This document shows, piece by piece, positions 4,516 to 46,039 of a stretch of 64,000 bases of DNA (positions within the stretch are counted from its first letter, which is position 1; every line of letters starts with the position of its first letter). The notes beneath the pieces were generated by a model, which ran no database searches, was not told the origin of the DNA, and saw nothing but the letters and a program-made list of their open reading frames with translations. The stretch is from Blepharisma japonicum (lineage: Eukaryota > Ciliophora > Heterotrichea > Heterotrichida > Blepharismidae): positions 124,001 through 188,000 of the forward strand of contig CATKHK010000016.1 in the NCBI GenBank assembly GCA_949751835.1, written 5' to 3'. The translations under genes were made by a program, and so were the position numbers.

Positions 4516-7500
4516 TTATTCGATTTCTGATATTAGAGAATTTTCACCAGGAAAATCTTCATCTGACATTCTCGGAGTAATGCTGATCGATGCATTCGCT
4601 TTAGCTTTCTTTTTCCTTGTTCAATTATTTCATGCTCTCAAGACAGTTCTAGTGTAAATCATCGACAAAAACAAATTAGTTTTTCCTTTACTCTTCATCT
4701 CGCTTACCTAAATAAAAATTACTTTTTCAAAGGAATAGAAATCCATACTTGATTTATCTCTGATCGCTCTGAGTTTCTTGGTTGTTGACGATTCTTCTTT
4801 CCTTAAAAGTTTTTCAGAATTTTCATCAAGAATGTCATCTATACCTTTTTCATATTTTCTTTTCATGACAGAATAAAGCATATCATTATAATAAATATAG
4901 CCATCAGCATCTATATCAAGATTAAGAGTAGACAAAATCTTCAAAACCTGGCCATGTGTAAAATCAGATGGAGCTCCCAAGCCATCTCCAAGAGCAAGCA
5001 TAAAATCAACCAAAAATTTGTAATGGATTCTTTTCCCATGGTTTTCAGCAGAATATACAGCTCATGTATTTTTAAACTTTTTAACGTCTTTATTAAATAG
5101 AATAACTCCGCTTTCTGCATCATTAGCGAAGTCTTCGTAATCTTGAAGGATAACCATAACGAATAAATTGATCATAATAAATGTTGTAAAAGCAATAAAA
5201 GTTATCCAGTAAATATACGATACAGTTTTCCCAACATTATCGGCACAATCATACATAGCGTCAGGCCAATTTTCCCCAGTTGAATGCTTAAATAACTTTA
5301 CTAAGGCTTGATCAAAATTACTCATATTACTATAATCGTCAAATACAGCTCCTGAATTGATATTATGAAACAAATAAACTCCTAATACTGCATATATCAC
5401 ATATACTAATAATAAAATTGCAGACACATTTAAAATTGATGGAATAGAATAGGACACCAAAGTTATCAAATCTTGCAAAGTTTTGAATTTTTTAATAAGT
5501 CTCACCACCCTTGTAACCCTTAAAACTCTTATTGCTCTTATCAGTTGAGGTGCTTTGCTCCATACATGATCAATAGATACAGTCACATAGCTGAAAACTA
5601 AATCAACACAAGATGATATAACCACAAAAAAATCAAACCTATTCCACCCATCTTTAAAGTAGTTTTTCCCTAAACCTATTAGTTTTATTGCACCTTCCCC
5701 AATAAAAATATATGTAAAAATCATATTGCAGATTTCAAGAGAGTCTGTATAATGAGTAGAAGCTTGTTCATAGTAAAGGCACATTAGGAAAAAGTTTAAA
5801 ATGATGCAGAGAATGATAAAAGATTCAAAGATCCAGTGATTTTGAATGATAAAAAAGAGTGCTTGGAATTTGTTTTCTGGCTTGCTTGCTATGTCAAGCT
5901 CAGGTTTTGACTGAGTAATTAAGGACTGAATTTCAACCCATACCATCTGTTCTTTGGATAGTATTAATGACGCCAATGAGCTTTCGTTCTTTTTGGCTTC
6001 AATAAACTTTTCAAAAACAACACCAGAGAAGAGGTTCATAAAAAATACAGATGACATGCAGAGGTGGACCACAAAATAAATTGCTGCGTTAGGGTAGTAG
6101 TTAGAGATTGGTGCATATCCCTCTTTATATGCAGAACAAGCTGCATACATATAGTCAGGCCAGCTTTCTTGAGTAGTTAATATAAAAGAATTCACCATAG
6201 CTTCAATGACGTTATCAAAATTGAAATGATACGGATCTCAGTTATACCCATAATTTTCGCATTCATCTTGATTATTTATATTGCTATTAGAGCAGCTGTA
6301 AAGCTTCCCTGCAAAGAGTGAGACACCTAAGATAGAAAAAACAAGTCAGAGGATCAATATTGCTCCAAATACGTTAATAACTCCTATTAAAGATTCTATT
6401 AGTGCATTGAGCATGATTTTCATCTGGACATTATGACTGATTATTCTCAATGGTCTCAAAATTCTGAGAATCCTTAGGACTTTAATTTCAGGCCAGCTCA
6501 CGTCTGTCAAGGCCAAATCAACAATCGAAAAAATGACTATAATAAAGTCAAGCTGGCACCATCTGTCTCGAAGATAAGATCCTTTTGATAATATAAAACC
6601 CATAGATACAGATTTTAGAATCATTTCGAACGCAAAAATACAGGTAAAAGCTGTATCCAGATTGTTAGATATTTCAATTCGTATATCAGTAGAAGGAAAA
6701 TCGAGCAAGTATGTGTCCCATATCAATTTAAGAGTGCTTACCAGAATAATTGCAAGAATACACTTTTCCATTGTAGGATTTGATGATAAGAAATAGCATA
6801 TTTTTCGGATTTTATTTTCTTTCAAAAATATAAAAAAGCTTCTTCGACATTCAATTCCAGCAAAGTATGAGGTTTGCTTTTTCAGCATGCTTTGCCTCTT
6901 TATTTCTTCTAATGACATGTTTTCATCAAATTCAAAATCTCCATTTATTGCTTCTTCTAAAGCTTTGAGTCTTTTTTCTTTTTTCTTTCTACTTCTTGAC
7001 TCAAAAAGCCCATTTTTACTTGTCAGTCCTGATTTACCGTCTAAGCTTGAAGATTCAGAATTTTCATCTTCTACAGAAAATATGTCAAGAACTAAAGCCA
7101 AAAAGATATTAAGCAAGATTTCATTCCCAAGCATAAGTCATACAGCTGGAAATAGAGTTCCTGGGTACCCATAAGAAGATCTCATCGTCAAATATTCCTC
7201 ATTGTTTCAATTTTCATCTGTCAAAATTTGGAAGGTCGAAAGAAACGAAAAATATAAATTATTATAGTTGTATTGGTTATGAGCCTCAGCAAAATTCAAT
7301 TTATTTGAAAAAAGCTGCACACCTAAAATCGTGAAAATAATCACAAATAAGCTGAGGAATATAGTAAGATAGAAAAACATGTAAATATTTTTTGAAATTT
7401 TGTCGATAATATGTGTTGTTGTTTGCAAGTATCGGAAGAGCCTAGCGACTCTTATGACGCGAAAAATTCTAAATACACGAATTGCTCAGATTGCACTCAT

Positions 7501-10284
7501 GACTGATCCAGAACCTGTTATTAAAAGAAAATCAACAAGCCCAAGAATTGTAATAGAGGCATCAAATAAATTTATTTTTTCTCTGCAGTAATTTAGCAAT
7601 CCAAGTCCAAGCATTTTTGTCCCCATTTCAGCTACAAAAATTATTGTAAAAACAGTGTTGATTTGATTCAAGATGAGACTTGTATCAGAATCGATCCCAT
7701 AGTAATTTACAGATAAAACTGTAGTATTACCTATTATACAGAATATCATAAAATAACTAAAATATTTGCTATTTGCAATGAGAAATAAGGGAAAGGTTAG
7801 CTGCTTTCAAATCCCAAAAATTCCTTTTTGCCAGATTCGAAAATTCATATTTTCAACAATATCAATGCTTTTATTTGTTTTACTTTTAGGATTTACGTCG
7901 AATCCTGATCAGTCTCCAACAATATTTCGTGCTGAAAAATCATTGTCCTTGATTTTTTTAATAATTTTTGGGACCTTTATTGCAGTCTTATGAAAAGCTG
8001 CTTTCATTTTATACTTTTGGCAAAGATATTTAAAAACATCAAACCTATCTCCTCTTTCTCTATATCTCATTATAGTATCGGAAATTTTATTATCTCATGG
8101 TTGTGTTAAACTTTCAATAGCTGATGATATGTCTTTGTTATTTCTATAAGAAAATCTGTATTTATTAGAAGGTTTTGAGTATGATGATATATTTATGATT
8201 GGAATGACATCGATTAAAGAATTTGATTGGATTTCATAAGATTCTTCAATAAAAGCTTTTATTTTTGTCTTGTCATTGACGTCTCTTAATTTGCCCAATA
8301 AATCTTTTCTTAGCTTCAAATTTTTAATTCTTGCTGTGGCTCTAGGAGTCGCTCAAGAAATTAAGCTAGATTTATTGCCGGCTTCATTTTCTTTTTTATC
8401 ATATATATTTGTGGAAGGTATTTGATACCTAAAAGATGTGTGTCTATTTATTTTGTCGAAGTCTAATCAGCTGTTATCTGTGAACTTGCCAGAAATATCT
8501 TGCTTTAGTGCATCGATACTTTTATATTCATGATTTGTCTGGATGGAGGAAGTTTTTTGCTTATAATTTTCTCAATCGAAAATAGGGGTTGGCAAACTTT
8601 CATTTGGTGTAATATTGGCTTCTTGGCTCTGTTCAGCCATATTCTCTGAAGAATCAATTAACTCATATCGATCTGTAAAGTGAGAATTTCTCACAATAAT
8701 TTCTGCATTTTTAAAAATTTCATGCATTCTATATGGCGGCTTTATAATATCGGCTCTTAGAGAGGTTTTAAATGAATCTTTTATATGGCTATTATCTGTG
8801 TATTGTTGATATTTCTTTGAGTTTTCACTATTGTGATACTTAAATTCAAAACTTTCTCAATTTTCATCATCTTCCTCAGATATTTGTATTAAATTGTCTA
8901 GCACAGAGCTATCTGCAAGTTCTTCTTCAACAATATCAAGCTCTCTTTGTTTTGCGCGAGATTTATCCATTTCTTTTGACAAATTTGATATCAAAATGAC
9001 CTCCATGATGTTCAGCATCATAAAAGCTCCAATAAATATCAGCGTTATTGAAAAAAGAATAGATGCTGGCTTGTTCAATGTCTTTTCACCAATTTTCATA
9101 ATTGTACTTCAACCTTCTAAACTCACTGAAGTAAAGCATTGCAACACCCCAATCAAAACATTGTCATAGTTGATTTTCCCATAGACAGGGTTATCTAAGC
9201 TTGGCACACATACAAACCCATGAGGACACTCTAGAACTCCACAGACGCTATCACTTCCAGGAGCACTTGGAAATTTCCCTGTTTCCAAATCCATGCATTT
9301 ATAATTGAATAATCCTCCAAACAGCTGATTTCCTATTATTGCGTAGATTAAAAGCACAAAAAAAAGCATCATTAGAGCATTTGCAATGGGAACTATAGAT
9401 TGAAATAGCGCAGAAACTAAAATTCTTAAGTCCTTTAAAGAAGAAATACTTTTTAAAGGGCGGAGAATTCTTAAAGAACGTAAGGCGTTAAAATTGAAGC
9501 CTCTACTTGAGTAAATATTTGCAAGTCAAGCTGTAAGTAATATAATAAAATCAAAAACATTCCATGGGTCTCTAAAATATGAACCCTTCGAAATCACAAC
9601 ACCATAAGCTATGATTTTTAAACCAAATTCTGCTGTGTAAACATATAAGAAAAAATCATCAAGATTATTCAAAGCGCTGGACTCATTAGTCGTGTCAGGA
9701 TCTTCTATAGCTATAATAACAGTGTTTGCAATAATAAAACATAAAATAATTGCATCGAAAATTGAACTTTTTACAATTTTTCGGCAAAGCTCTATTAGAG
9801 CTCATTTTATTCGTAAAAATGCTTTTCTTGCATCTGAAAATGGAGATTTTGTGTTAATTGCTTCAATTACTTCAAACTTTGTTCATTCACGAATTCTCAT
9901 GTAACCTTGAAGCAATTCTGTGTCGTCAGTCTCTACTGTAGGTTTGAGCAAAATTAATGACTTCATACTTTTAAACTTTGTTTCAGAAAATTTTGCATGG
10001 TACAACTCATTGTCAATTCTCTCGTGAAAAGATGTATTTAAAGCCTCAGGATTTGCTTTTCGGATTTCAAATGATAAGGTAGATATCGAGTTGCTAGGGG
10101 TTTGTTCTGACATTAAATACTGAGACATTTCATTATGAAACTTCATGCTATCATTATCTGAATTAGAGTATTTTTCTGGGCTATAATACTTTAAGCGACT
10201 TTTGGGTTTTAGAGGAGGCAATTCTGCATTATGTTTTTTCTCCAAATACTGAACTTTAAAACTAGGATTAAACTGATCTTTCAT
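4516..10284 (-). CDS. Four-domain voltage-gated Ca2+ channel alpha subunit, copy A
   Basis: Predicted pore-forming subunit of 1917 aa with four homologous six-helix domains (24 membrane segments), probably in the cell or ciliary membrane. S4 helices carry Arg every third residue, for example LRSLRILRPLK in domain I and IRVLRVTRVVRLIKKF in domain IV. The four pore loops read LEGW, TDENW, TQESW and TGENW (about residues 392, 1026, 1371 and 1670), an EEEE filter as in Ca2+ rather than Na+ channels. A C-terminal EF-hand follows (DIDADGYIYYND). Many Trp codons are TGA, so a standard-code reading shows nine fragments, all in the same frame. A 15-nt intron (4708..4722) near the end removes a TAG. 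The gene starts at ATG 10284; an upstream TTG in frame is not needed. Copy B ends 105 bp upstream. Confidence 0.93.
4708..4722 (-). other. 15-nt intron, Ca2+ channel copy A
   Basis: On the coding strand this reads GTAATTTTTATTTAG. Retained, it places a TAG in frame. Removed, the frame continues into a tail (KGKTNLFLSMIY...) that aligns with copies B and C. Phase 0. Confidence 0.88.
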
Positions 10285-10389
10285 TATATTTATTCTAATC
10301 AAATATTTGTCTAATTACAATTTTAAAAATATTTAAAAAAATGTTTTAAAATTAAGTTTTGACCTAATTCGGTTAAATATTTAAAATTA

Positions 10390-13300
10390 CTATATAATCT
10401 CAGCTTCAGATGACAATAAAGAATTATCTCCTGGGAACTCGACGTCTGAGAACCTTGGTGTAATGCTAAGATCGCCTGATTTGCCAGCATCGTCTTTTTT
10501 CTTCTTAGTCCAATTTCTTCAGCTTCTAAATACAGTTTTCGCATAAATCATTGCAAAAAACAAATTAGTCTTGCCTTTAATCTTCACTTGACTACTTGCT
10601 CTCATTTCTGAGTAGAAATTTATTGATATTTTTTCCCTCATTTGTTGCAATCTTTTACTAGTCTGATGCTCTTCTTTTCTTATTATTTTTTGTGACTTCG
10701 CATCAAGATTCTTTGCTAAATCCCTTGCATGTTTCCTTTTCATGACAGAGAAAAGCATATCGTTATAGTAAATATATCCTTCATCGTCTATATGTAACTC
10801 CATTATTGATAGCAGCTTGATTACCTTTTCATGTGGTGTACCTGATGGTACTCCCAGTTCTGGTCCTAATTGAAACATTAATTCAACTAAAAATTTGTAA
10901 TGGACTCTCAATCCTTGACTTGAGGCTGAATATGTTGCCCAGGCATCTTTAAACTGCTTGACATCTCTATTAAAAATAATAACACCACTTTGGGCGTCAT
11001 TTGCGAAGTCTTCATAATCTTGCAAAATAACCATAACGAACACGTTTAAGAGGACAAAAGTGGTAGCTGATATAAAGGTACATCAATACAAATAAGCAAT
11101 GGCCCTACCACTTGAGGATTTAGCACAATCAAACATTGCATCTGGTCAGTTTTCTCCTGTTGAATGCTTAAACAGCTTTATGATCGCTTTTCCAAAATTA
11201 TTCATGTTATCATAAGAGCTAAAATTATTCCCAGAATCAATTGAATGATAAAGATAAACCCCAAGGACTGCATAAATCACATAAATTAGCAGCAAAATTG
11301 ACGTGACATTCAAAATTGAAGGAATTGAATAGGAAACCAAAGTGATCAATTCTTGCAAAGTCTTGAACTGTTTTACCAATCTTATCACCCTTGTCACCCT
11401 TAAAACTCTTACCGTTCTAATTAGCTGTGGTGCTGTTTTTAAAAGAGGGATCCCTGATGTAATTATATATGTAAAAATCAAGTCTATAATAGAAGCAATA
11501 ATTACGAAAAAATCAAATCGGTTCCATCCATCATAAAAATATAAATATCCCATACCTGTAATTTTAACAGCACCTTCAGCTATAAATATATAAGTAAAAG
11601 CTGAATTAAAATTTTCCAATACACTTGTGTATTCTGCAGAAGCCTGGTCATAATACATACACATCAAAATAAAATTGCATCCAATGCAAATACTAATAAA
11701 TATTTTAAATGACCAATGGTCTTGAATTGCATAGAAAAAATTTTGGAATTTATTTTCTGGCCTTTTAGTTTGGTCAATCTGAGGTCTTGATTGGGCAATT
11801 AAGGACTGGATTTCGACCCATACCATCTGTTCTTTAGATAAAACGAGCGCTGCTATTGAGCTTTCATTCTTTTTGGCTTCAGCGAATTTTTCGAACATAA
11901 CACCAATTAACAGATTGATGAAAAAAATAGAAGATAAGGACATGTGGATGATAAAATATATTGCTGCGCTTGGGTAATATCCAGAAATTGGGGCATGATC
12001 GATTTTATATGCTGCGCATGTTTGATACATTCAGTCAGGCCAGCCTTCTTGTGTAGTTAGGATAAAGGAATCAATCATCCCGTTAGGAACATCATCGAAG
12101 TTAAAATCCATTACATCTCAAGTGTAGCCTAATTTTTCGCAATCATCACGAGTGTTAATACTGGAATTAGAGCAAGTGTATAGCTTCCCTCCAAATAGTG
12201 ATACTCCTAAAATTGAAAAAATCAGCCAAAGGAGAAGAATGGCAGCAGAAACGTTAAAAACTGAGATCAAGGATTCTATTAGAGCGTTGATCATAATTTT
12301 CATTTGAAGATTGTGACTGATAATCCTTAATGGTCTTAGAATTCTTAGCAGCCTCAGTACTTTGATCACTGGGATGTTCACAGATGTCAATGCCTGATCG
12401 ATGACTGATAGAACTACGATAATAAAGTCAAGCTGGCATCAGCTGTCCCTGAGATATGATCCTTTAGAAATTAGAAAGCCCATTGATATTGATTTTATAA
12501 TCATTTCTACTCCAAAAATAACAGTAAATACAAAATCAAAATAGTTTGATATCACAATTTCAATGGAATCTGAAGGCAAGTCTAACAGATAAGTATCCCA
12601 TATCAACTTAAGTGTGCTTACAATAATAACGACCAAAACTAAAGCTTCATATTTCGGGCTACTCGTCAAATCATAGCACAGCTTCCTTATTTTATTTTGC
12701 TTGGACAATATAAAAAAGCTTCTGTCACAATCAATTCCTACAAACATGGTCTTCACCTTCTTCATTTCACTTTGGCGCTTTAGCTCATCAAGGCTCCTCT
12801 TCCTTTCTTCTTCATTTAAATTGCTATTTTCATTTTCATTTTCGCTTTCACTCTCACTATCAATTTCGCTTAAATCCTCCAAAATTTTAAGCTTCTGCTC
12901 CTTTTTCTTTTTAATCCTTGATGAAATTGAAAAAATGCTTTCTCTTCTGCTCTCATTTGTATATGATCCTGTAGTTTGTCAGCTGATATCCTCTTCTTCA
13001 GTTGAAAAAATATCGAGAACTAAGGCTAGAAAAATGTTCAGTAAAATATAGTTTCCAACCATAATCCATATCGCAGGGAATAAAACACCAGCATATCCAT
13101 ATGTGGACCTCATAGTGAGATAGACCTCGTTATTTCAGTTTTCTTCTGTCATGATTTGGAAAGTTGTGAGAAATGAATAATAAAAATTGTTCCAGTTATA
13201 TTTGTCTTTAGCTTCAGCGAAATTAAGCTTACCTGAGTATAGCTGTAGCCCAACGATGGTAAAAATTAGAACAAAAAGTGACAAAAAAATGATCAGGTAG

Positions 13301-16293
13301 AAAAAATTCATAATGTTTTTTTGAAGCTTTTTTATGATGTGTGTCATTGTTTGGAGATACCTGAATAGCCTTAAGACACGAACTACACGAAAAATTCTTA
13401 AAATTCTGATTGCTCTGAGTGCTTGGAATGAGTTTCCTGTGTCTGATAAAAATAAAAATTCAATTAATCCAAGGATTGTGATTGACCCATCAAATAGGTT
13501 CATGGCTTCTCTGCAGTAATTAATAATGCCAAGTGCTAGAATCTTTAAGCACATTTCTCCTACAAAAGTGAAAGTAAAAATCGAGTTTATTATTGTCAAT
13601 ATTGTGTCTGTTTCTGAATCAATTCCATAATGATTTATTGACAAAGTAATTGTGTTTGCTATCACGCATAGGATCATGACATAATTGAAACGTCTGTGTT
13701 TAACAATTCTTTTAAAAGGGTAGACCATTCGCTGCCAGTTCCCTACGAAACCATTGCTTCATAGCTTATAGGTCATAGTATCCATTTGTTCTTTGTATTC
13801 ATGTGTTTTTAATCCATCATTGGTATTTACATCATACCCTGACCAGTCCCCAATGACGTTTTTTGACACTTTATCCTGTTCTTTAATAGCCTTAATAATT
13901 TTTGGAACTTCAATTGTAGTCATATAGAATGCCACTCTGATTTTGAATTTGGTGCACAAATATCTGAAAATTTCATTTCTATCCCCCTTTTCGCTATACC
14001 TATCAAGAATATCAGATACTCTGTTGTCTCATACTTGGGTTAGTTTTTCCAAATTAGAAAGGATGTCTTTTCCTCCTCTATAAGTGAACCTATACTCATA
14101 TAGTGACTCAATATGAATTTTATCATTGGCAAGAAACTCTTCAGGGAATACATCACATGTAGAAGTTGACATAATTTCATGCTTTTCTTCAATGCAAAAT
14201 TTTATTTTGGTTGTATCCCTCACATCTTTTTTCAGCTTCTGTGCCAAGTCTTTTCGAATTTTTACCTTTTTTACTCTGGTCAATACAGGCGAAAGAGTTT
14301 TTTCTGAAACTTTAGAAGCAGTTTCTCTTTTGGTGGAATTTTTAAATAAAGAAGTCATTCTTGATAGAACTGAGTCCTTTTTGGTAAAACTTTCCTGTTT
14401 GGTTTCATAGGTTGCTGAAGGAGAGTTTCCAATGTTCGGCTTGGCATGCGGAGCAGCTTTTAAAAATATTTCTTCACCATGATTTACTGAAGTGTTTTGG
14501 TCTCCTGTACTTTCTTTCTTAAACTTATCCCACTTTGGAGACGGCAAGCTTTCGTCCAGATCTTTAACTTGTAAATCTTCATCATTAAGCCTAATGCTGC
14601 TGTCCATAGAGTTAAATGCTTCAAAAAACCCAGTAGCTTTATTTTTCAAGCTAAGCTTGGCCTGCTTATAAATTCCATGCATTTTTAGTCTTTTGTTGCT
14701 AGAAAATAAAATTTTATCATCTTCAAGCTGCGATCGATTAGTTTCTGGGTTTCTATCTTTGTAAGCTTCATCAGGATTTATACCTAGCCCAGATTCATAT
14801 TTTTCAGCATTTATGCAATTATTGCTTTCCTGATCAAATGAGTCGTGGTCAGAAACTAAGTTTTCTATTACAGAAGAACCTGCAGATTCTTCTTCATTAG
14901 CGTCACCTTTTTTTTGTTCCAGCCTCAAATTATCCATTTCCTTCGAAAAATTCGAATACAAGACGACTTCCATGATATTCAGCAGCAAAAAAGTGCCAAT
15001 AAAAATAAGTGAAATTGAAAACATGACAGCAATTGGCTGATTGAAAGCTTTTTCGCCCATAATCATAATTTGAGTCCACCCTTCTTCACTAATTGAAGTG
15101 TAGCACTGCAAAAGTCCTATCAAAGCGTTGTCAAAGTTTATTTTACCATATACAGGATTATTCAAGCTCTTAACACATTCATATCCTCAAGGGCAAGATC
15201 TGCTCCCGCAGACTTCGTCATCTCCTGGAGCCATTAGAAATTTCCCAGTCTCCATATCCATACACTGATACTTGAACAGCCCTCCAAAAAGCTGGTTCCC
15301 AATGATCCCAAATATAAGTAGGACAAAAAACAATATTAATATAATATTTGACAGAGGCAAAATAGACTTCAGTAAAGCTAAAACGAGGACTCTGAGCCCA
15401 GGGAGAGAAGAAATACTCTTTAAAGGCCTAAGAATTCTCAGTGAACGCAATGCGTTCAAATTAATTGATGTTGTTGCATATATTGATGCTCAAGCAGTGC
15501 TAATAATAATAGAGTCAAGTATGTTTCAGGGATCAGTAAAATAAGCTCCTTTGTTAAATATTAATCCATATGCTAAAATTTTCAACCCAGCTTCTGCTGT
15601 ATATACATATAAAAACATGCTATCTAGTGCAGCCAAAGAGGCTGGCTGAGTATCCACAGTTGGGTCTTCAATTGATAAAACAATGGTATTAGCAAAAATA
15701 AAGCACAGGATTATTATATCAAATGCAGGATTTGATACAATGTGTAAGCAAAATTGAGAAATCGCATGACATACACGCAGAAATGCTTTTCTGAGATCAA
15801 GTCATGGGAAATTGTCGTACATATCTTCAATAACTTCAAAAGGTGTGAGCTCACGAATCCTAATATATCCTTTTAATAGCTCAGGATCATGAACATTTGG
15901 ATCTGGCTGATTTATAGATAAAGTTTTAAAGCTTCGAAAAGTGTTCGAAGCTGAAAAAAGCTTTTTGTTTAATCCATTATCTTCCTCAATTCTGTCTAGA
16001 AAGGAACGATGTAGCGCACAAGGCTCAATACTCTGACGCTTTGGAGTATAAATTGTTTCATTAAAGCTGGAATCCAAAACAAGGGCTTGGAACGGAGTTG
16101 TGGAAGGTCTGCTTGAGTAGGCTGATGAAAAAGTATCGTTACGATAATCTCCGTCATTTGGAACTTTGCGAAGTTTATTTACATTTTTTGATTTTACGGA
16201 GGGTCTTTTCTCGTTTGCCTTATAATAGTCTCCAGAAATCTCCTCAGATTCGTGCTCAGACATATGGGAGTAAGGACTAATAGTTCTTTCCAT
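10390..16293 (-). CDS. Four-domain voltage-gated Ca2+ channel alpha subunit, copy B
   Basis: Second tandem paralogue, 1967 aa. The layout matches copy A: four six-helix domains with Arg-rich S4 helices and pore loops EEGW, TEENW, TQEGW and TGENW (about residues 404, 1053, 1416 and 1716), giving EEEE, then a C-terminal EF-hand-like loop (HIDDEGYIYYND). The domain I-II linker is long and Ser/Lys-rich and contains GDWSGYDV shortly before domain II. That octapeptide is also in copy C, with GDWSGFDV in copy A. Unlike A and C, no micro-intron is seen in the tail; the exon reads straight through there and carries a few extra residues. Domains and reading frame are intact, so it looks functional. Starts at ATG 16293 after AT-rich DNA. 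Confidence 0.94.
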
Positions 16294-16587
16294 TATAAGT
16301 GAAAGATGATATAATATTTAAATTAGGTAACTTATTAGCTTATTCGAATTATTTTTAAATTTTTCAGAGCATAATATTTTAGAGTGGCTTAATATAATTA
16401 TTGGAATTTTAAACAAAAGTTAATATAAATTAATATGACTGATTAGGATTTATACAATATATGGAATGGTATAACGCTTTTTGATGATTTTTATTAAGGA
16501 TACTTCTTATTAAAAAATAAAATTAAATAGATATTTATTATAATACATATTTTAATTACGATTTACATTTAATTCTAATTCTTCATT

Positions 16588-19500
16588 TTATTCTCCTATA
16601 TGGCCTATTTGATTATCCTCACTACTAAGCTCATTAATTGAACTTATAGAATTTTCTCCAGGATACACAACTTCTGAAAACAATGGTGTAATACTAACCG
16701 ATCCAGATATTTTATTTCTTTTTTTCATAGTATAATTTTTTCAGCTTTTAAACACACTTTTTGCATAAATCATGGCAAAAAACAGGTTTGTCTTTTTCAT
16801 TTTTTTTAATTTGTTTTTCTACATAATCCTTACATGAGCTTCGCTATAAAAATGTGACCTTGATTTATCTTTTATTTGACTTAATTTTTTTAATGTGGAA
16901 TTTTCTTCTTTTCTTATCAATTTTTTAGATCTTTCGTCTAAATTTTTAATTAATTCTCTTGCATGCTTTCTTTTCATTACAGCAAAAAGCATATCATTGT
17001 AATATACATATCCATCAGCATCTATATCTAAATCCATAATTGATAATAATTTAATGACTTTTTCATGTGGGTAATACATAGGAACTCCTAATTCTTCCCC
17101 CAACCTATACATAAACTCAACTAAAAATTTATAATGCATTCTTAACCCTAAATCTGTAACTGTCAATAAGGATCAAATTTTCTTAAAAATTTTTACATCA
17201 TTATTAAATATCGCAACTACACTTTTAGCATCAGTTTTAAAGTCATTATAGTTTTGGATAATAACCATCACAAAAACATTCAAAAGAATGAATGTTGTTA
17301 AAGAAATAAAGGAAATCCAATATAAATATGATACGATTTTGCCTGAAGAGTGAGAACAATCAAACATTGCTAATGGTCAATCTTCTCCAGTAGAGTGTCT
17401 AAATAGCTTAACCAAGGCTTTATCAAAATTGTGCATATTATTATAAGAATCGAAATTTTGGCCACTGTCAATAGAATGAAACAGATAAACACCTAAAATT
17501 GCATAAATTATATAAATAAGCAGCAATATTGCTGTTACATTCATAATAGAAGGGATCGAATAAGACAAAAGTGTAATTAAATCCTGAAGAGATTGGAATC
17601 TTTTGACAAGCCTAATAACACGTGTAACCCTTATAACTCTTAATGACCTTATTAATTGAGGAGCAATTTTCATATATTTATTTCCATTATTCACAATGTA
17701 TTCCATTATTAAATCTACAATAGAAACACAAGCGACCAAAAAATCAAATTTATTTCACCTATCTTGAAAATAATTGATCCCTGAGCCTGATATTTTAATT
17801 GCTGCTTCTACTATGAAAATTGACGTAAATATAAAATTAAATATTTCTAGGATATAGTTATAGGTGTCTGAGGCTTCATCGTAATATAATGACATCTGTA
17901 TGAAGTTTAGTATAATGCAACCCAGAATGAATGATTCAAAAACTCAATGCGTTGAAATCACAAAAAAAAATATTTGAAATTTATTTTTTGGCTTTTGTGG
18001 GGTGTCTAATTGAGGCTTTGATTGAGCTATTAAAGACTGAATTTCCACTCAGAGCATTTGATCCTTTGTTAAAATAAGCGCAGCTAAAGAGCTTTCATTT
18101 CTTTTGGCCTCGTTGAATTTTTCGAAAATAACACCAGATAATAAATTAACAAAAAATATTGAAGAAATAAACATATGGACCACAAAATAATAAGCAAGAC
18201 CCGGATTATAGTTTACTATAGGAGCATGGCCTGGCTCATAAGCTGAGCAGCCAGCATACATATAATCTGTTCAACTTTCTTGGGAAGTTAATACAAATAA
18301 AGCAACCATGGCTTCTAAGACATTATCAAAGTTAAAGTCAAAGACAGTCCAGTTATATCCGTTTTTTTCGCAATCAACTTGGTTTTTGATATTAGGATTA
18401 TCACAGCTGTACAGTGTTCCAGCAAATAAAGAAACACCGAGGATAGCAAAAATCAGTCAGCCAACCAACATAACAATAGCTACATTAAATACAGAAACTA
18501 AAGATTCTATAAGTGCATTTATCATTATTTTCATTGAAACGTTATGGCTGATAATTCTTAATGGCCTTAAAGTTCTCAAAAGTCTTAGGACACGTATAAA
18601 TGAAATATTTACAGTTGATAGGCATTGGTCAGTGATTGATAATAATAAAATGCAAAGATCTAATTGGCATCAAGAGTTTCTTAAGTAGGAACCTTTATCG
18701 AAAAGAAGACCCATTGAGACCTGTTTAATTATCATTTCTATTCCAAATACAGTTATAAAAATTATATCTAAAAATCCTGAAACTTCAACTTTTGGGTCAT
18801 TTTCTGGAAGATCAATTAAATAAGTATCTCAAATCAAAGAAATTGTGCTCAAAGATATCATAACTAATATAAAATTCTCAAAGCTTTGACTACTTGATAG
18901 CCTGTGGCAAAATAGCCTGAATCGATTTGTTTTTGAAAAAAGATACAAGCTTTTTTCACACTCAATTCCAACATAAAAAATTCTTTCCTTTCTCCTCACA
19001 CTTGCTCTCCTCAAATCTTCCAAAGTTTTGCTTCACTCTCCACTCTCGCTTAAGTTTAATGCCTCAATCATTTTCAATTTTTGTTCTTTCCTTTTTTTTT
19101 TCCTTGAAGACATCGAAGACAAAAAACTTTTGGTCTTTGTATCAGCAGATGATAAGTGTATTGTCGATAAATAATCGTCTGATTCTTCATTTGCAAACAT
19201 TTCAAGCACAAGGGCCAAAAACAGATTAAGTAGGATATAATTTCCTAAAACTAGTCATATGCAAGGAAATATTACTGAGATATATCCTTGTTGAGAACGC
19301 ATTACGGCTATTTCAATTATATTTCAATTTTCTTCTGTCATTATTTGAAAAATCGATAAAAAAGAAAAATGAAAATTGTCAAAATTATATTTGTAGTAGT
19401 TTTCTTTAAAATTGAGCTTTCCTGAAAAAATTTGAATCCCAATGATAGTAAAAATTAATAAGAAAAGCATAACAAAAAGCAGCAAATAAAATAGATTTCC

Positions 19501-22500
19501 GATATTCTTTGAGAGTTTATTAATTATGTGTGACATTGATTGCAAATATCTAAACATTCTAACCACTCTTATTACTCGAAAATTCCTCAACACTTTTATG
19601 GCCCTTAATACACTAACTGTTGACCCAGAGCTTGAAAATATTATTTCAAGTAACCCAAAAATGCTTACAATTGCATCAAAATAGTTCATTTTATCTCTGC
19701 AGTACTCTTTTAGGCCAAGTCCAACAACTTTTAAGAACATTTCAGTTATAAAAACATATGCAAACGCAGAATTAAATTTTGTCAAAATAGCATCAGTCCC
19801 TTCATCAATTCCATAATAATTACTTGATAAAACGGCTGCATTAGCAATAACACAAAGAACCATAAGGAAATTAAAAAGCTTGCTCTTCATTAGAACAAAT
19901 AAGGGATATTTTATTTTCTGGATTTTTCCTCATATCCCTGGACTTCAAATTCTGTAATTCATCTTATCAAGCTCATCTTTATATTCTTGAGATTTAGCTG
20001 GGCCTTCTTTATATACATCATATCCTGATCAATCCCCTTTCACATCTTGAGTCATTCTATCATGCTCACGAATTTTTTTCACGATTTTTTCTACATGCAA
20101 AGAAACCATATAGAAAGATTCTTTAATTTTGTATTTTTTACACAAAAATCGAAATATTTCTGTTTTATCGCCTTTATTCTTGTATTTATCTAAAACATCA
20201 CAAATCTTGTTATCTCAGCGCTGAGTTATTTTTTCTAAGTCAATTAAAACATTTTTTCCCCCTCTATATGAAAATTTATATATAGAGAAAGGGTTCTGAT
20301 GAGTCAATTTTTTCGGTTCTTTTGGAATTACGTCATCAAATGATGTCATCTCCACTTCATAATGCTCATCGACTGAAATTTTTACTTTGGCTTGATGCTC
20401 GCCATGCTTCATTCTTCTTAGCAGGTCCTTTCTTATTTTGATATTTTTTACTCTATTAATCATTGGAAAAACTGTGCTGTCAACTGAAGTCCTACGTTGC
20501 TCTCTAATATTATTTGTTGCCAAAGAACTAATTTTGGTAGTAATTGATCTCCTTTTATCATAATCTATTTTATTGTCACTGATTATTGTTTTATCTTTTG
20601 AATCTGTGACTAAAACAGTGTTTTCAATGCTTTGATTTAATAATGGGATTTTGCCTAGGCTCACAGAGCTTTCGTAGTCTTCAATTGAAGAGCTTTGCCT
20701 TAAAAAATTAACGCTCTCTCTTCGAGTAGGAATTAATCTTAGCTGAATAAATCCTTTTACATTTCTTTCTTCGTATTCATGAGAACTTCGAGGAGATGCA
20801 TCAATACTTTCATGTCTTGATAAAGGTAGTAATTCATTTTCATTAGGCTCCTCATTACCTCCTTGGGAGAATTCTTCGTTACTTAAATCTTCCACCAAGT
20901 TAAGATTTATTTTTAAGCTTTTTGACATAGGATCATGATGGACTGCTGTTGGTCCAAATGTTTCGTTTTTATTTTGATCATCTACAAGTCCCTGATATTC
21001 TTCATTCTTCACAATATTTACATTTTCTTCTATATTTCCTGGATTTTTATAAAATAAGCTGTCTCCAGGATCATTTACGATGTGCTCAGGAAACCCATTT
21101 TCCTCATCAATCATAAGAGGTGAATCTTGCCCAATCCCTAAATTTTCTATCACAGAAGAGTCAGCAGATTCTTCTTCAATAATCTCTTTTGCTGACTGTT
21201 TAACCCTAACCTTTTCCATTTCATGAGAAAAATTCGAATATAGAATGACTTCTATTAAGCTGAGCATTAAAAAACTGCCTAGAGAAACTAAAGAAACAAA
21301 AAAAATAATTGATATCGGCTGTGATAGTGATTTTTCTCCAATAATCATCATGTGAGCTCAACTTTCTTCTGTTATCGCAGTAAAGCATTGCAATCAAGAA
21401 AATATCACGTTATCAAAATTTAACATACCATAAAGTGGGTTGTTCAAACTATTTACACAATAATAACCTAAAGGACATGTCAGGTCCCCACATACTTGTT
21501 CGGTGCTTTTTGGATATAGGTACTCCCCTGTTTCTGAATTTATACATGAATATTTAAATAATCCCATAAATAGCTGCACTCCACCAATCGCAAATATCAA
21601 GAGAAAAAAGAATAAAATAGCCAGAATATTCATAAGAGGGAGTAAAGATCCAAAGAAAGCTAAAAATAAAACTCGTAAACCCTGGATTGAAGAAATTGTC
21701 TTCAATGGACGCAAAATTCTAAGAGATCTCAAAGCACTCAAATTAACCCCTTGATTTGCATAATATGATGCCCAAGCCGTAGCAACAATAACGAAATCAA
21801 GGATGTTCCATGGGTCTTTAAAATAAGCCTCTTTTGTAAATATAATTCCTTTTCCAATTAATTTCATAGCACATTCAGATGTATAGATATATAGGAATAA
21901 AGAATCCATCGTAATCAGGATTTGAGAATTGTTATTCGAAATGGGATTTTCGATCGCTAAAACCACTGCATTTGATAATATTACGAGCACTATTAAGACT
22001 TCGAAAATTGGATTTGAAACGATTATATTGCAAAGCTGAGCAATTGAAGCTTTAATACGTAGTAGTGCTTTTCTTAATAGAATTAATGGAAACTTATCAC
22101 GTATGTTTTCAATGTATTCAAACGGATTCTGTTCACGTATTTTTATATATCCCTTTAATAATGCTTGATCATCAAAGTTCATGTTGTCCGGATTCATTGC
22201 TAATGACTTTAAAGTCCTAAGTGTTTCCATCGATGTGAATAGATTTTGTGTAAACTCTTTATGAAATTGCTTATGAAAGGATTGCTCTAGTGCAGTTACA
22301 TGATCATGAAAGTCCTCTCTTGAATTCTCAACAAAAGAAGCTTGCTGACTTGAGTCATGAATTACTTGCAAAAAATTTCCAGAGGACCGCCTGCTATCAT
22401 TTCGAGATGCATTTTCTATATCAATTATATCTAAATTCGAGATTGATGAATTTGCCCTTGATCTTTGTTTTCTTTGGAAAAATTGACTCATTAGATTGTC

Positions 22501-22575
22501 TGTTCTACACTTATGAAAGACATTTAAAGTAGATTCTTGGACTTCATAGTATTTTAACTCTGAATTCTTCCTCAT
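16588..22575 (-). CDS. Four-domain voltage-gated Ca2+ channel alpha subunit, copy C
   Basis: Third tandem paralogue, 1990 aa. Pore loops read EESW, TEENW, TQESW and TGEDW (about residues 400, 1084, 1433 and 1733), again EEEE. The S4 helices, the GDWSGYDV motif in the domain I-II linker and the C-terminal EF-hand (DIDADGYVYYND) are shared with A and B. The domain I-II linker is the most diverged part and is rich in acidic residues and Ser. A 15-nt intron (16819..16833) sits in the tail, close to that of copy A but with a different sequence. The protein ends in an acidic stretch where copies A and B also share an SITP..S....PG.NS motif, which could be a conserved docking or regulatory tail. The ATG at 22575 is the first in frame. 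Confidence 0.93.
16819..16833 (-). other. 15-nt intron, Ca2+ channel copy C
   Basis: Coding strand GTAAGGATTATGTAG. Removal eliminates an in-frame TAG and restores the conserved tail (KKTNLFFAMIYAKS...). Confidence 0.85.
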
Positions 22576-23806
22576 TTTATTAATTTAGTAATTAGGCTTA
22601 GATTTTGTTAATATCAAATATTAAACCAAAACTGCATATTAAAACTTAGCGTAAAAAATAATTAAAAGGATGATAGTTAATATGAAAATGAGCCTATTGT
22701 TTTTTTTTATTAAACTAAAGCTCTTAAATGGCTCTTGGACTGGAAATTTCTGAATATTTGCCGAATATTTAATATTTTTGCTGTTTTAACAAAATTGAAT
22801 ATTTATGCGCCGACTTAAATTTAAAGGCAAAACAAATAATTGTTTCTTCCTTTTAAAATTTTTAATCTCAAGCTTTTAATTAAATATTAAAACTAATAGA
22901 CAAATGCGATGCACTACAATAAGAATTTAAAATTTTTTATGATTATATTTGACTAATATGAATTTCTATTGATGTATTGGTAATAATTATTTTGGTCATC
23001 TATTTGGAAGAATTCTTTTAAGAAATTTTATAATAAAAGCTAAAGTTTTATGCATGTTTTACTTATGCTCATTGTGGAATTATATAAAAATATAATTTAA
23101 TATTTAATTTAGAATCCTCTAAGGGACGTAGAGATCTGTGCTTGAATATATATATGAAAAGGATAGAAAAATTAAAATTTATCTAGCATGATAGTCATCA
23201 TCTTTAAAATCATTAATAAACAGATTTAGTTTAATGGAATTTTATCAAATTCTGTTGTTAAATATTTATTTATATTATTGTGCAATGATTTTGGCACGAT
23301 TAGTCTTATATCATATTTTCTGGCAAACAAATTAGTTTGGCTATTTAATGCAGGAACTTATTCAGAATTATCTTTAATTTTTTATTATTTGTTCTCATAA
23401 AGTTTATATTTCCCAATTACTGAATTTTTCATTACTCTAACAACCAATTTTTTGTTCCGTCTCAATGAAATTTTCTCAATTTTAAGGACTAATTAACTCA
23501 AAATTCAGCTTAATCATTTAAATAAAAATTTGATATTACTCAGTATAAAAGCCTGAATTTTATGATTCAAATTGTTTGGCTGCTGCTCTTTATAAAAGTA
23601 AAATCTTTGCAGAAAAATTATTTCTGTTGGAAAATATTTCATATCAGCCAGCATTAATTCCATTTATTATATATTTTAAAGTTAATCTAAATAAGCTTTC
23701 TTAAATTCTGGAAAATTCGAATTTACTTTAAATTCGCAAATTCTGATTTTAATTTATTTTTATAATAATAAAACATTTATAATTTAAGTAATAACCATTA
23801 ATAAAT
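22576..23806. other. AT-rich intergenic region, 1.2 kb
   Basis: Lies between two divergently transcribed genes (channel copy C and the EF-hand/PH kinase), so it should hold both promoters. I see only AT-rich sequence with frequent TAA/TAG in all frames, and no RNA gene, repeat or further coding segment. Confidence 0.6.
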
Positions 23807-25543
23807 ATGTGTCGTACGGCTTCCGCATTATTAACAAAATGTGCTATTCAAAAGTTATCTGCAAAGGAAGGCAATAAAAGAGAGCGCAGGAGGCTCAAAA
23901 AAATTTTCAAAGAGCTTTCTAGCAGATGTGCGCTTTCTGATCCTGGTATAGATAGAGACGGGTTCTTGCGATTTACTGAACTCCCTGGGCTGTTAGGTGA
24001 GCAACTTTTCAGTGCTCTGGATGGGAATGGAGATGGCCGAATTGATATAAAAGAATTTTTAAGAGGCATGCTGACTCTTTATAAAGGGACAATAGAGAGC
24101 AAAGCTGAGCTATTATTCAAAATATTCGATTTTAGTAAAAATGGTGAAATCACGTCAGAAGAAATCCTCTTTATAATTTCCTACCTTCCGACGACTTGTT
24201 CAAAGTGTCAAAAAAAGCTGGTAGTTCATTGAGATTTAAAAGAAAAAATAAAAGAGCTTTTTGATGGAAAAGAGTTTATTCATTTGGAAGAGTTTAAAGA
24301 ATTAATTTTGACCCATAGTGAAATCGGAGAGCTCGTTCTTCAATGCATCTTCAACGCGCTTCCAATAATCGTTGATGAATGCTTACTTCCAAATCGGCTT
24401 GTTTGTGAATCCCATTTAGAAATCACTGAAGGGATGCTAGGTTTCAAAGGCAGGACTTATTATTTTCAGCTGAAAAACCAAAGCTTGTATTACTCAACCC
24501 TCAAAGAAGACATTTCAAACCCAACCGGAATTATCCTCATTAAAGATCTCTTTGTTGAAGAGAACGGCCCTCTGGGCTTTGTACTTCGGAACTCAAAATT
24601 CCGCTATGAAATCAACACAAGCTCACTTGAGCAGCGAGATCAGTGGATTCATAAAATTCAGCAAGCAAATTGTTTCAAAAATTTTTATAATGACTATGAA
24701 ATCCTTGATCAAATTGGAAAGGGAGCTCATGGTGACGTAAGACGTGCCATTTCTAAACATGATGGGAAAATCTTCGCAGTCAAAATTATTTCCAAAGCTC
24801 CTCTTGATGATCTTGCTGAAACTCGTCTCCGTCGTGAGCTTGGGATTTTGAAGCTTTGCAAGCATGAAGGTCTTTTAGAACTTAAAGATACTTATGAGAC
24901 TGCTGATAGGCTTTATATTGTCACTGATTATATTCCTGGCGGCACTCTATTCAATTGGATGAAGAAAAGAAATTTTAGGATAGAGGAAACAGTAGCTAAG
25001 CAAATAGTAAAAGATATAGCAAGTGCTCTTCAATATTTACATTCTCATGGAATAATTCATAGAGATATCAAGCTTGAAAATGTCCTTGTGCAAAGAGCGC
25101 CGAATGGCGGTGGTGGAGGGATTCAAATAAAAATCATTGATTTTGGCTTAAGCTGCATGTTAGGACCAGGCCAAAATTCCATTGAATCAGTTGGAACCTT
25201 AAAATACGCCTCTCCAGAAGTCCTTTCAACAATTCCTTATAGACATTCTCCTGATATATGGAGTTTAGGAGTAACTGCTTTTATTCTGCTTGCAGGGAAA
25301 ATGCCATTCTATGGGAAAAGTGATCAGGAAATAGCATCAAAAATAATAAACAAAGAAATCGAAATGGTTGGGGAACATTGGGAAGGTACCAGCCCAGAGG
25401 CAAAAGAAATCATCAGATCGCTGCTTGATAAAAATCCTCAAGGAAGAATGACAATTGAAGATTTACTAAGAAGCGACTGGCTTGAAGAAGGAGAACTTGA
25501 TATCAGCAAAGATGTAGGCGAATTATCTTGGGAGATGATATAG
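23807..25543 (+). CDS. EF-hand / PH-domain / Ser-Thr kinase (CDPK7-like)
   Basis: Calcium-regulated protein kinase of 578 aa with an unusual order. N-terminal EF hands come first (the best loop is DGNGDGRIDIKE near residue 74; a second, DFSKNGEITSEE, follows; others are degenerate). A PH-like domain sits at about residues 200-285 (LEITEGMLGFKGRTYYF ... EQRDQWIHKIQQA), and the catalytic domain starts at about residue 297. Kinase motifs are IGKGAHGDV, AVKII, HRDIKLENV, DFGLS and SPEVL, all intact. Classical CDPKs have the EF hands after the kinase. EF-PH-kinase order is known from apicomplexan CDPK7, where the PH domain binds phosphoinositides. One in-frame TGA (nt 24230) reads as Trp. It sits next to the Ca2+ channel cluster. 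Confidence 0.92.
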
Positions 25544-25833: not shown

Positions 25834-26592
25834 TTAAATCTCATCCTCCGAGTGTTTTGGAATCTTTCGAGGATTTCCTTCAGTCATCACCTTTCTCGCT
25901 TTGATCACAACATTTCCAATAATCAAAGGTTGAATATAGCTTGCATCTATAGGTGCAACAACCAAGAAAACGCACCCATGTCTAAAGTGTGATGTGACTT
26001 CTTTGATAACAACATTATTAAAAGTGATCAGAGAGTCTGCTTCTACCTCAGTTGTTCCTCTCATCACTTTATCCCCTGAAGTGTTGTTTATCAAGAGTTT
26101 TGCTGGCCTTTCTGTAGTAAATAGCATAATCTTGAAACGTACTGGCGTTTGCAGCGAAACTTCGTTTCCTTGTAAATCCACTAATTTTGACACAAGACAA
26201 AATGCTCGCTCTTTATATACAGGGCGTGGAATAGTGCTGAGTAGGGAAATTCTATACCTAAAATTTGTGGTATTTCCGCTGATAACAGATAGTAATTCTT
26301 CATTAGTTGTGGAGTTTTCATCTGGAATAATTACAGACGCATTGCTATTTGGACGTTTTAAATCTTTTAATTCATTAGAAATTTCGTTTAATTTTTCATT
26401 TGTGATCTTTGTCTGGTTTGACAAGAGAACTATGATTTCTGCCTGCTGGCACATTGCTTGAGTGAATAAAGACAAAATTTGAGTCGAAAATGGGGTTTCT
26501 GTTGAACAGCTTTTTATTTTTGATATTTGAGTAAGGTAAGGACAAACGCATTGCCCGTCAGCAGCTCTGCAACTTTGATTCAATCTGCACAT
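25834..26592 (-). CDS. Unidentified 252-aa protein
   Basis: No family recognised. The N-terminus is cysteine-rich (MCRLNQSCRAADGQCVCPY). A stretch with coiled-coil character follows (about residues 50-80), then a longer C-terminal half with alternating hydrophobic residues typical of a beta-sandwich, including LITFNNVVIKEVTSHFRHGC and VFLVVAP. There is no signal peptide or membrane helix. Composition and an ORF without any stop support a real gene. The ATG at 26592 is the first plausible start. The C-terminal half vaguely recalls Ig-like folds of DNA- or calmodulin-binding factors; that is a guess only. Confidence 0.7.
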   Translation of the reverse strand: MCRLNQSCRAADGQCVCPYLTQISKIKSCSTETPFSTQILSLFTQAMCQQAEIIVLLSNQTKITNEKLNEISNELKDLKRPNSNASVIIPDENSTTNEELLSVISGNTTNFRYRISLLSTIPRPVYKERAFCLVSKLVDLQGNEVSLQTPVRFKIMLFTTERPAKLLINNTSGDKVMRGTTEVEADSLITFNNVVIKEVTSHFRHGCVFLVVAPIDASYIQPLIIGNVVIKARKVMTEGNPRKIPKHSEDEI

Positions 26593-27456
26593 TAAATAAT
26601 GTCAGTAATGTCGATTTAAGCTTTCCGAATAAATGGCTTACTTCTAGAGCTTCTAAGATAAAAAGAAAGCAAAACTTAAAAATTTATTCTCTTAAAAGCA
26701 TGGCAATAGAGAGATGAAGTCTAGAAGAGAAGAAAAGTAAAAGTGCTTTATTTTTGATTTTTTTCAATTGCAGTTACACTATATGCATTTTCAGAGAAGA
26801 GCTGGCAATTTCTTATATTTTTATCGATGAAGATAAAATTCTTGATGATAAAAGATAAATTACTTTTAATAAAAGGGTAAAGTTAAAAGATTAATAATTC
26901 AAAAAATAACTTTAAATAAAGAGCTTAAGTAGAGGTGGAAAATTATATACCGTCTCAGCTCTCTAAAGTAGACTTTCTAACTCTAATTTCAAGAGCTGAG
27001 ATTATGATAATTGATTACCATATTTTATTTTGTTTCCACGGCTTTAGAAATAATTATCTAAATTTATGCAAATGGAAAATCTCGAAAATAGAAATGGCTT
27101 CTAAACATAAATTTTTTAAGCGATTTAACAGAAAAAATCAATGCAATTTGAAAATCTTTTTAATAATAAATTTAAAAATTGTGAAAAATATTATTAGATT
27201 AATATTGATCGAAAGTAAAAATAATAAATAAAAATTCTAATATTTTTACAAAAATATGATTTTTATGCTTTCAAGGATTCTTAAAAAATACAATCAAATT
27301 ATTATAGATTAAAGTCGCTGGAATACTTCTAAAATAAAATATTTTATAAGTTGACTTATTAAACTCCTCAAGAAAATGAGTATTTAAAAGCTAAACCTCT
27401 ATGAAAAGCATACTTCTTAATAGAGATTAATTAATTGGCTTAATGACTCATTTAAT
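26593..27456. other. Intergenic region without recognisable features
   Basis: About 860 bp of very AT-rich DNA. A 98-codon plus-strand ORF (26935..27231) has no conserved look and is mostly Lys, Asn, Ile and Phe, as expected from composition. Nothing else is supported. Confidence 0.5.
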
Positions 27457-45507: not shown

Positions 45508-46039
45508 TCAAAACTAAAAATTTTATTAATTCTTTATTTCTAGGCAATCTTACGAGAAATTAATTATTATCAAATAAAGAATAAAAAAAGAGAAATTAAT
45601 GATGGATTTGTAAATATTTGAAAATTAACTGGTTTAAATCAATAAATGCATTTTTTTTGAATGATTTGAGATTAGTATCTGATGCAAGCACTAGCATTTG
45701 GCTGAGATGGATTTAATATCTTTAAAGTATTGCAAAGATTAATAACAGTCCTATCCTTAGAAATTGATAACAAAAAATAAATTTGAGATATTATAATATC
45801 GAATTTTTTCAGGATATGTTGTGTTTTAGCCAGAAATTCATATATTGGCTCTTATAATTGCGTATCCCAGATTTAACCCTGCTATATTCCAATTTCTTTA
45901 TCAATGCTTCCCTTTAATAATAAGCTTTTTATCTTATGAAATTATTACACTTTCTTGTAATTAAAGGGTCAACTAGACTTCACTATACTCTTTCAAAATT
46001 TAATTAATTAAATGTCTATTCTTTTTCTTATAAATAACT
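45508..46039. other. Intergenic region
   Basis: About 530 bp, AT-rich, between two plus-strand genes. No coding or RNA signal recognised. Confidence 0.5.

Follow-up and report, generated by a model that had tools for sequence, protein, structure and literature searches.

Ca2+ action potentials belong to the classic physiology of ciliates. Our searches of the open-licence literature turned up no study of the heterotrich genes that underlie them, and none of the titles and abstract openings listed there describes the locus studied here, where three genes for four-domain channels stand side by side. The question that this locus raises is whether the neighbours are copies of one ordinary Ca2+ channel or channels that differ in what they conduct. 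The window, that is, the whole stretch of DNA analysed, is 64,000 nucleotides long (bases 124001-188000 of contig C16), and the genome searched comprises 45.2 Mb in 224 contigs.

Three intact channel genes in tandem

When TGA is read as tryptophan, the minus strand of the window contains three intact four-domain channel genes arranged head to tail. Only with this reading are there minus-strand frames of more than 1800 codons in the array region: under translation table 4 (TGA=W) they have 1868, 1975 and 1921 codons for genes 1, 2 and 3. The gaps between the genes are 105 and 294 bases. In each of the three proteins four stretches match Ion_trans (PF00520), with E-values of 7.5e-188, 2.2e-199 and 1.6e-195, and the whole-protein scores are far above the Pfam cut-off. 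The genes and their introns are given below, where n+1 is the residue after the filter glutamate in domains I to IV.

4516..10284, minus strand: gene 1 (C16_1), 1917 aa after splicing, filter EEEE, n+1 G/N/S/N
10390..16293, minus strand: gene 2 (C16_2), 1967 aa, no intron seen, filter EEEE, n+1 G/N/G/N
16588..22575, minus strand: gene 3 (C16_3), 1990 aa after splicing, filter EEEE, n+1 S/N/S/D
4708..4722, minus strand: predicted intron of gene 1, GTAATTTTTATTTAG, 15 nt
16819..16833, minus strand: predicted intron of gene 3, GTAAGGATTATGTAG, 15 nt, at the same place as in gene 1

The two 15-nt introns are predicted from the reading frame, the GT-AG ends and the homology of the tail downstream. 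Both end in three bases that form an in-frame TAG, so that an unspliced intron in gene 1 would cut off the C-terminal tail. Once they are removed, the frames run on to 4516 and 16588 and regain a tail that is encoded unbroken in gene 2 and in three other genes of the genome (C71_2, C95 and C26). Because the frame ends move in this way, the limits of the array in the preliminary description, 4516 and 22575, agree exactly with the spliced models. Its account of three intact head-to-tail paralogues with an EEEE filter is confirmed by the open frames, the four Ion_trans matches in each protein and the filters.

In addition, the genome is of the heterotrich type, as had been supposed. TGA is read as tryptophan, introns measure 15, 15, 15 and 16 nt in the four cases found, and CCCTAACA repeats are present, exact 24-mer matches numbering 77 in forward and 91 in reverse orientation, against none for the reversed control. 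Passages of PMC9942806 describe the same three features in Blepharisma stoltei. Elsewhere in the window (46034-48169, plus strand) there is a hybrid histidine kinase that includes a receiver domain of the response-regulator type, here in a ciliate genome.

Divergence between the copies

The tandem layout and the shared orientation, and these only, speak for three assembly or haplotype duplicates of a single gene. However, the three pairs of proteins are 48, 51 and 55% identical in amino acids, aligned DNA pieces are 63-70% identical, and synonymous differences are saturated or nearly so (their proportion, pS, is 0.73-0.77). Further, the intron states differ among the copies, and in a tree of the family members of this array pair with genes of another array. 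The measured divergence is decisively against such duplicates, whose probability we put at practically nil; assembly duplication, which the preliminary description had named as a refutation, is rejected and the copies are real paralogues. The ratio dN/dS (NG86) is 0.05-0.15 in six of seven pairs and saturated in the seventh, C16_2 with C16_3; these values are rough, since in most pairs dS is close to saturation or has reached it.

The differences are unevenly distributed along the proteins. Two regions are variable, the N-terminus and the proximal stretch of the I-II linker: in residues 501-650 of gene 2 the fraction of positions identical in all three genes is 0.02-0.10 per 50-residue block. 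In the distal 190 or so residues of the linker this fraction is 0.22-0.36 per block, and in the C-terminal tail (residues 1851-1967 of gene 2) it is 0.29-0.40. Diversity had been placed in the I-II linker and the tails; this is right for the proximal linker, to which the N-terminus should be added, but not for the distal linker or the C-terminal tail, which are kept. Pores and voltage sensors are kept, as was also claimed: all three genes have EEEE filters, and each of the 12 aligned S4 strings is charged, with 5-8 lysines or arginines.

A channel family with two arrays

The genome contains at least 11 four-domain channel genes: three each on contigs C16 and C71, and one each on C95, C26, C51, C159 and C6. 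This is a lower bound, as 150 of 247 candidates from Pfam Ion_trans clusters were scored. Six further regions (L017-L022) were scanned for open frames only. A second search, with 347 residues of gene 2 as query, gave 28 matches at E <=1e-10, all of them inside family genes.

Eight of the genes, namely the two three-gene arrays and the single genes on C95 and C26, form one clade, and C51, C159 and C6 form a second. The tree is midpoint-rooted, seven of its eight inner branches are starred, and C6 has an unusual residue make-up. Two pairs of sisters, C16_2 with C71_3 and C16_1 with C71_2, join the arrays, both at 100/100. The locus had been put forward as a good candidate for Ca2+ excitability and ciliary reversal: its three genes are real channel genes, but it is not unique, as the genome has another array of three genes and, besides the arrays, five more genes with four domains.

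The second array is found at C71:205758-226382 (L009-L011), and its middle gene, C71_2, has the filter EADE. Between C71_2 and C71_3 the opposite strand has an open frame of 642 aa, the first 506 of which were scanned and match the FAM135/DUF676 families of serine esterases, and just downstream of the array (C71:203587-205626, L009) lies a single-domain channel frame with a cyclic-nucleotide-binding domain. The C159 gene (C159:38305-41745, L015) is 79% identical to C51 in amino acids and is cut by the contig end, which is probably an assembly break because the last 120 bases of C159 contain no telomere repeat. C16_1, C16_3, C71_1 and C71_3 each have an intron of 15-16 nt at a common position ahead of the tail; none is seen in C16_2, C71_2, C95 or C26, and the closest relative of C16_2 is the intron-bearing C71_3.

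In the direction of transcription the order is C16_3, C16_2, C16_1 on one contig and C71_3, C71_2, C71_1 on the other, and the two sister pairs therefore follow each other in the same order on both. A further open frame lies beyond the 5' end of the C16 array.

25837..26637, minus strand: flanking open reading frame, 267 aa

This frame has no Pfam match at E 0.001. A genome search with it gave 32 matches, itself included; the closest relative, at 65% identity against 48% for the runner-up, is the frame that follows beyond the C71 array on its 5' side. The two arrays appear to be block duplicates of an array that already existed: because they share gene order and the flanking frame, the array would have come first, and block duplication would then have given the second array on C71. 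The duplication would be old, because synonymous change between C16_2 and C71_3 is close to saturation (pS 0.74). Neither C16_3 nor C71_1 has a counterpart across the arrays, and this history must therefore also include gains or losses on either side. The array is thus real and old, and one of two such arrays found in the genome. Adjoining it on the plus strand (window 23795-25540) is a protein kinase with a pair of EF-hands and a PH-domain match; the corresponding place on C71 has no open frame of 200 aa or more.

The selectivity filter and its flanking residues

By alignment the filter is E/E/E/E, and in that respect Cav-like, in all three array genes. The residues that follow the domain IV glutamate differ between neighbours.

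5272..5274, minus strand: domain IV filter glutamate of gene 1, E1671 (TGENW), n+1 asparagine
11152..11154, minus strand: domain IV filter glutamate of gene 2, E1714 (TGENW), n+1 asparagine
17383..17385, minus strand: domain IV filter glutamate of gene 3, E1731 (TGEDW), n+1 aspartate

Within the array an acidic n+1 in domain IV is found in gene 3 only, and genes 1 and 2 lack an acidic n+1 in every domain. Among the 11 genes of the genome seven have EEEE (C16_1, C16_2, C16_3, C71_1, C71_3, C95 and C51), while the filters of C71_2 and C26 are EADE and QEEE; two are incomplete, C159 (EEE, domain IV missing) and C6 (a gap at domain II). The domain IV n+1 is acidic in three of the eight clade genes (aspartate in C16_3 and C95, glutamate in C26) and neutral in five, with asparagine in C16_1, C16_2, C71_1 and C71_3 and glycine in C71_2, which has an aspartate at the domain III n+1. 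These five genes make up exactly one subclade (100/100 support), spread across both arrays. In the second clade the residue is aspartate in C51 and asparagine in C6, C159 being without that domain; a neutral domain IV n+1 is therefore not unique to the lineage of the array.

Two single genes are unusual in other ways. C26 (C26:436526-442177, L013), besides its QEEE filter, has an arginine at the domain II n+1, a replaced tryptophan in the domain II loop and a three-residue gap in the S4 of domain I, and its product is possibly not Ca2+-selective. In C6, of the second clade (C6:161803-165993, L016), the domain II filter shows a gap of one residue, and the aligned S4 strings of domains I and III contain just 3 lysines or arginines.

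According to passages of PMC10120453, the residue after the filter glutamate, the beacon, is proposed to decide between Ca2+ and Na+ permeability. An aspartate beacon, which sits in domain II in animals and in domain IV in many non-animal channels, would mark Ca2+ selectivity, and neutral non-glycine beacons are proposed to accompany Na+ permeability. This rule predicts weaker Ca2+ selectivity for genes 1 and 2 than for gene 3, and the members of the array may thus differ in how strictly they select Ca2+. The split may mean little, because in an earlier and broader survey of 277 channels the presence of acidic n+1 residues did not correlate with that of EEEE (PMC5824947). Further, most protist EEEE channels displayed in a review lack the domain II aspartate (PMC6259924).

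The EEEE motif alone does not fix Ca2+ selectivity. The earlier statement that the filters are of the Ca2+ type consequently stands for the motif but not for the selectivity, which EEEE leaves unsettled and for which two of the three genes lack an acidic n+1. Could at least one member, then, be something other than a Ca2+ channel: Na+-permeable, non-selective, or a regulatory subunit with little conductance? The n+1 residues of genes 1 and 2 are in line with this, as are the EADE and QEEE filters of the related C71_2 and C26 and the Na+ permeability proposed for neutral non-glycine beacons (PMC10120453, in part). However, the evidence for the beacon rule comes largely from bacterial channels and animal Cav3, and the survey in PMC5824947 runs against it; we hold this explanation to be very unlikely.

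The opposite explanation is that all three genes encode ordinary Ca2+-selective channels, that the copies serve dosage and regulation (promoters, life stages or membranes, such as cilia versus soma) and that the n+1 changes are neutral. It agrees with the EEEE ring in every copy and, from PMC5824947, both with the missing correlation and with the EEEE filters of the Paramecium ciliary channels characterised so far; the variable N-termini and proximal I-II linkers could hold targeting signals. Yet the domain IV change is common to one five-gene subclade that spans both arrays, and C51, C159 and C6 could equally be the ciliary channels. On the whole we find this explanation unlikely.

The III-IV linker and the C-terminus

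The III-IV inactivation gate is defined in PMC5824947 as three hydrophobic residues and a T or S. Such a motif of the Nav type is found in each array gene.

5956..5967, minus strand: III-IV linker gate motif LILS, gene 1
11836..11847, minus strand: III-IV linker gate motif LVLS, gene 2, aligned by phmmer to IFMT of Nav
18067..18078, minus strand: III-IV linker gate motif LILT, gene 3

With the III-IV linker of gene 2 as a phmmer query against solved structures, Nav1.8, Nav1.5 and Nav1.4 are best (34.6-35.0 bits). Matches to Cav1.1 and Cav1.2 that span the linker have 22.7-27.0 bits, and Cav3.2 reaches 33.2 bits over residues 3-38 alone, on the S6 side. By alignment, the linker of gene 2 is thus closer to the Nav gate than to Cav.

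At its C-terminus gene 2 aligns with Cav1.2 through the EF-hand into the pre-IQ region (query residues 2-147 of 201, E 9.8e-10), and two cockroach Nav entries align there up to residue 158 (E 8e-4). The Pfam family GPHH scores 16.5 bits against a fragment of gene 2, with a cut-off of 26.8, and 26.9 bits, just over the cut-off, against C51. By eye the tail looks similar to the Cav IQ sequence. However, neither Pfam nor phmmer with 34 residues found an IQ motif in the gene 2 tail, which is IQ-like at most; most protist EEEE channels displayed in PMC6259924 also lack a C-terminal IQ motif. An AlphaFold model of domains III and IV with the C-terminal tail has low confidence (pLDDT 54.5, pTM 0.43); the 50 Foldseek matches listed for it are Nav and Cav structures, and the model is too poor for them to add evidence.

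A conserved module in the I-II linker

The last 190 or so residues before domain II form a conserved module.

7768..8331, minus strand: distal I-II linker module, gene 1, conserved
13696..14277, minus strand: distal I-II linker module, gene 2, conserved
19882..20454, minus strand: distal I-II linker module, gene 3, conserved

The other seven genes of the clade are 34-67% identical to gene 2 in this module, and across all eight there are 22 invariant columns, GDWS among them. A genome search with the gene 2 module, at E up to 1, found eight places, one in each gene of the eight-gene clade. There is no convincing Pfam family for it: at E up to 10 we obtained 11 families, each in one of the eight members, which we take to be chance matches (best E 0.0067). 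The whole I-II linker of gene 2 gave one match among solved structures by phmmer, with E 0.16. A folded domain in the linker was considered and dropped, as the AlphaFold model has a pLDDT of 57.0 and a pTM of 0.35 and the fold is not well predicted.

In animal Cav1 and Cav2 channels of the high-voltage-activated type this linker carries the AID for Cav-beta, with the motif GY..W. No such motif is present in residues 401-900 of the three array genes and the five other clade genes; in C51, C159 and C6 this span misses most of the shorter I-II linker. Cav-beta (PF12052) has no match in the genome, against a weak control (2 of 14 control organisms matched, none over the cut-off), and alpha2-delta (PF08473) has none against a silent one (0 of 14). 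Because the controls are weak or silent, these subunits may nonetheless be present.

What the copies may do

We consider it fairly probable that the paralogues are non-redundant components of the current, differing in selectivity and kinetics, for the Ca2+-based excitability behind ciliary reversal. Depolarisation would move the charged S4s, and the pore would then pass Ca2+, with strict selection in gene 3, which has the domain IV n+1 aspartate, and looser selection in genes 1 and 2, which have asparagine there. The III-IV lid would end the current, possibly together with Ca2+/calmodulin at the C-terminal tail. The preliminary description had suggested subunits for different membranes or life stages; read from the sequence, a split in selectivity is the more specific hypothesis, though one of modest probability.

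A bolder version is a graded set, in which gene 3 is Ca2+-selective and a neutral n+1 founded a five-gene lineage of Na+-permeable or mixed Na+/Ca2+ channels that inactivate fast, with an EEEE ring and a Nav-like lid. We rate it as quite unlikely. If it were true, heterotrich ciliates would have an independent route to a Nav-like current, and the I-II linker module would control the channels in place of a Cav-beta subunit.

Whichever applies, the locus gives full gene models and a series of paralogues in which a residue flanking the filter differs between neighbours, and the role of this residue in an EEEE four-domain pore is therefore testable on natural variants. It also warns that an EEEE motif, taken by itself, does not prove Ca2+ selectivity.

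Comparison with known channels

The array genes combine features of animal Cav and Nav channels. The best match of gene 1 among solved structures is Cav1.2 (522 bits, E 2.5e-155), ahead of Nav and NALCN, and gene 2 can be aligned to animal Cav1 over the EF-hand and the pre-IQ region. In contrast to Cav1, the array genes have no AID-like motif, the genome gave no Cav-beta match (under the weak control), the III-IV gate motif is Nav-like and no IQ motif was detected in gene 2. They differ from animal Cav1 and Cav2 at the domain II beacon too, which is asparagine instead of aspartate in all three. The likeness to animal Nav lies in the III-IV linker of gene 2, where LVLS stands opposite IFMT; however, the filters are EEEE and not DEKA or DEEA, and gene 1 scores lower overall to Nav than to Cav.

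Among ciliates, Lodh et al. reportedly described CaV1-like channels in the cilia of Paramecium tetraurelia in 2016. In agreement with the array genes, the Paramecium tetraurelia ciliary channels are four-domain and EEEE, and they carry a calmodulin-regulated Ca2+ current in a ciliate (PMC8208649 and PMC5824947, both in part). The second clade is also a candidate for their counterpart: C51 best matches animal Cav2.3 and just reaches the GPHH cut-off.

Pozdnyakov et al. 2018 (PMC5824947) name ciliate channels in clades I, XXV and XXVI, and Blepharisma does not occur in their main text. In that survey the ciliate channels share with the array genes the four Ion_trans domains, the common EEEE filter, the lack of an AID and, in subclades Ia and Ib, an S4 rich in arginine and lysine; there are several types per species, some with odd filters. 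Because ciliates are already known to have several types of this family in each species, the array genes belong to a known kind: they are new members of an established family of ciliate channels.
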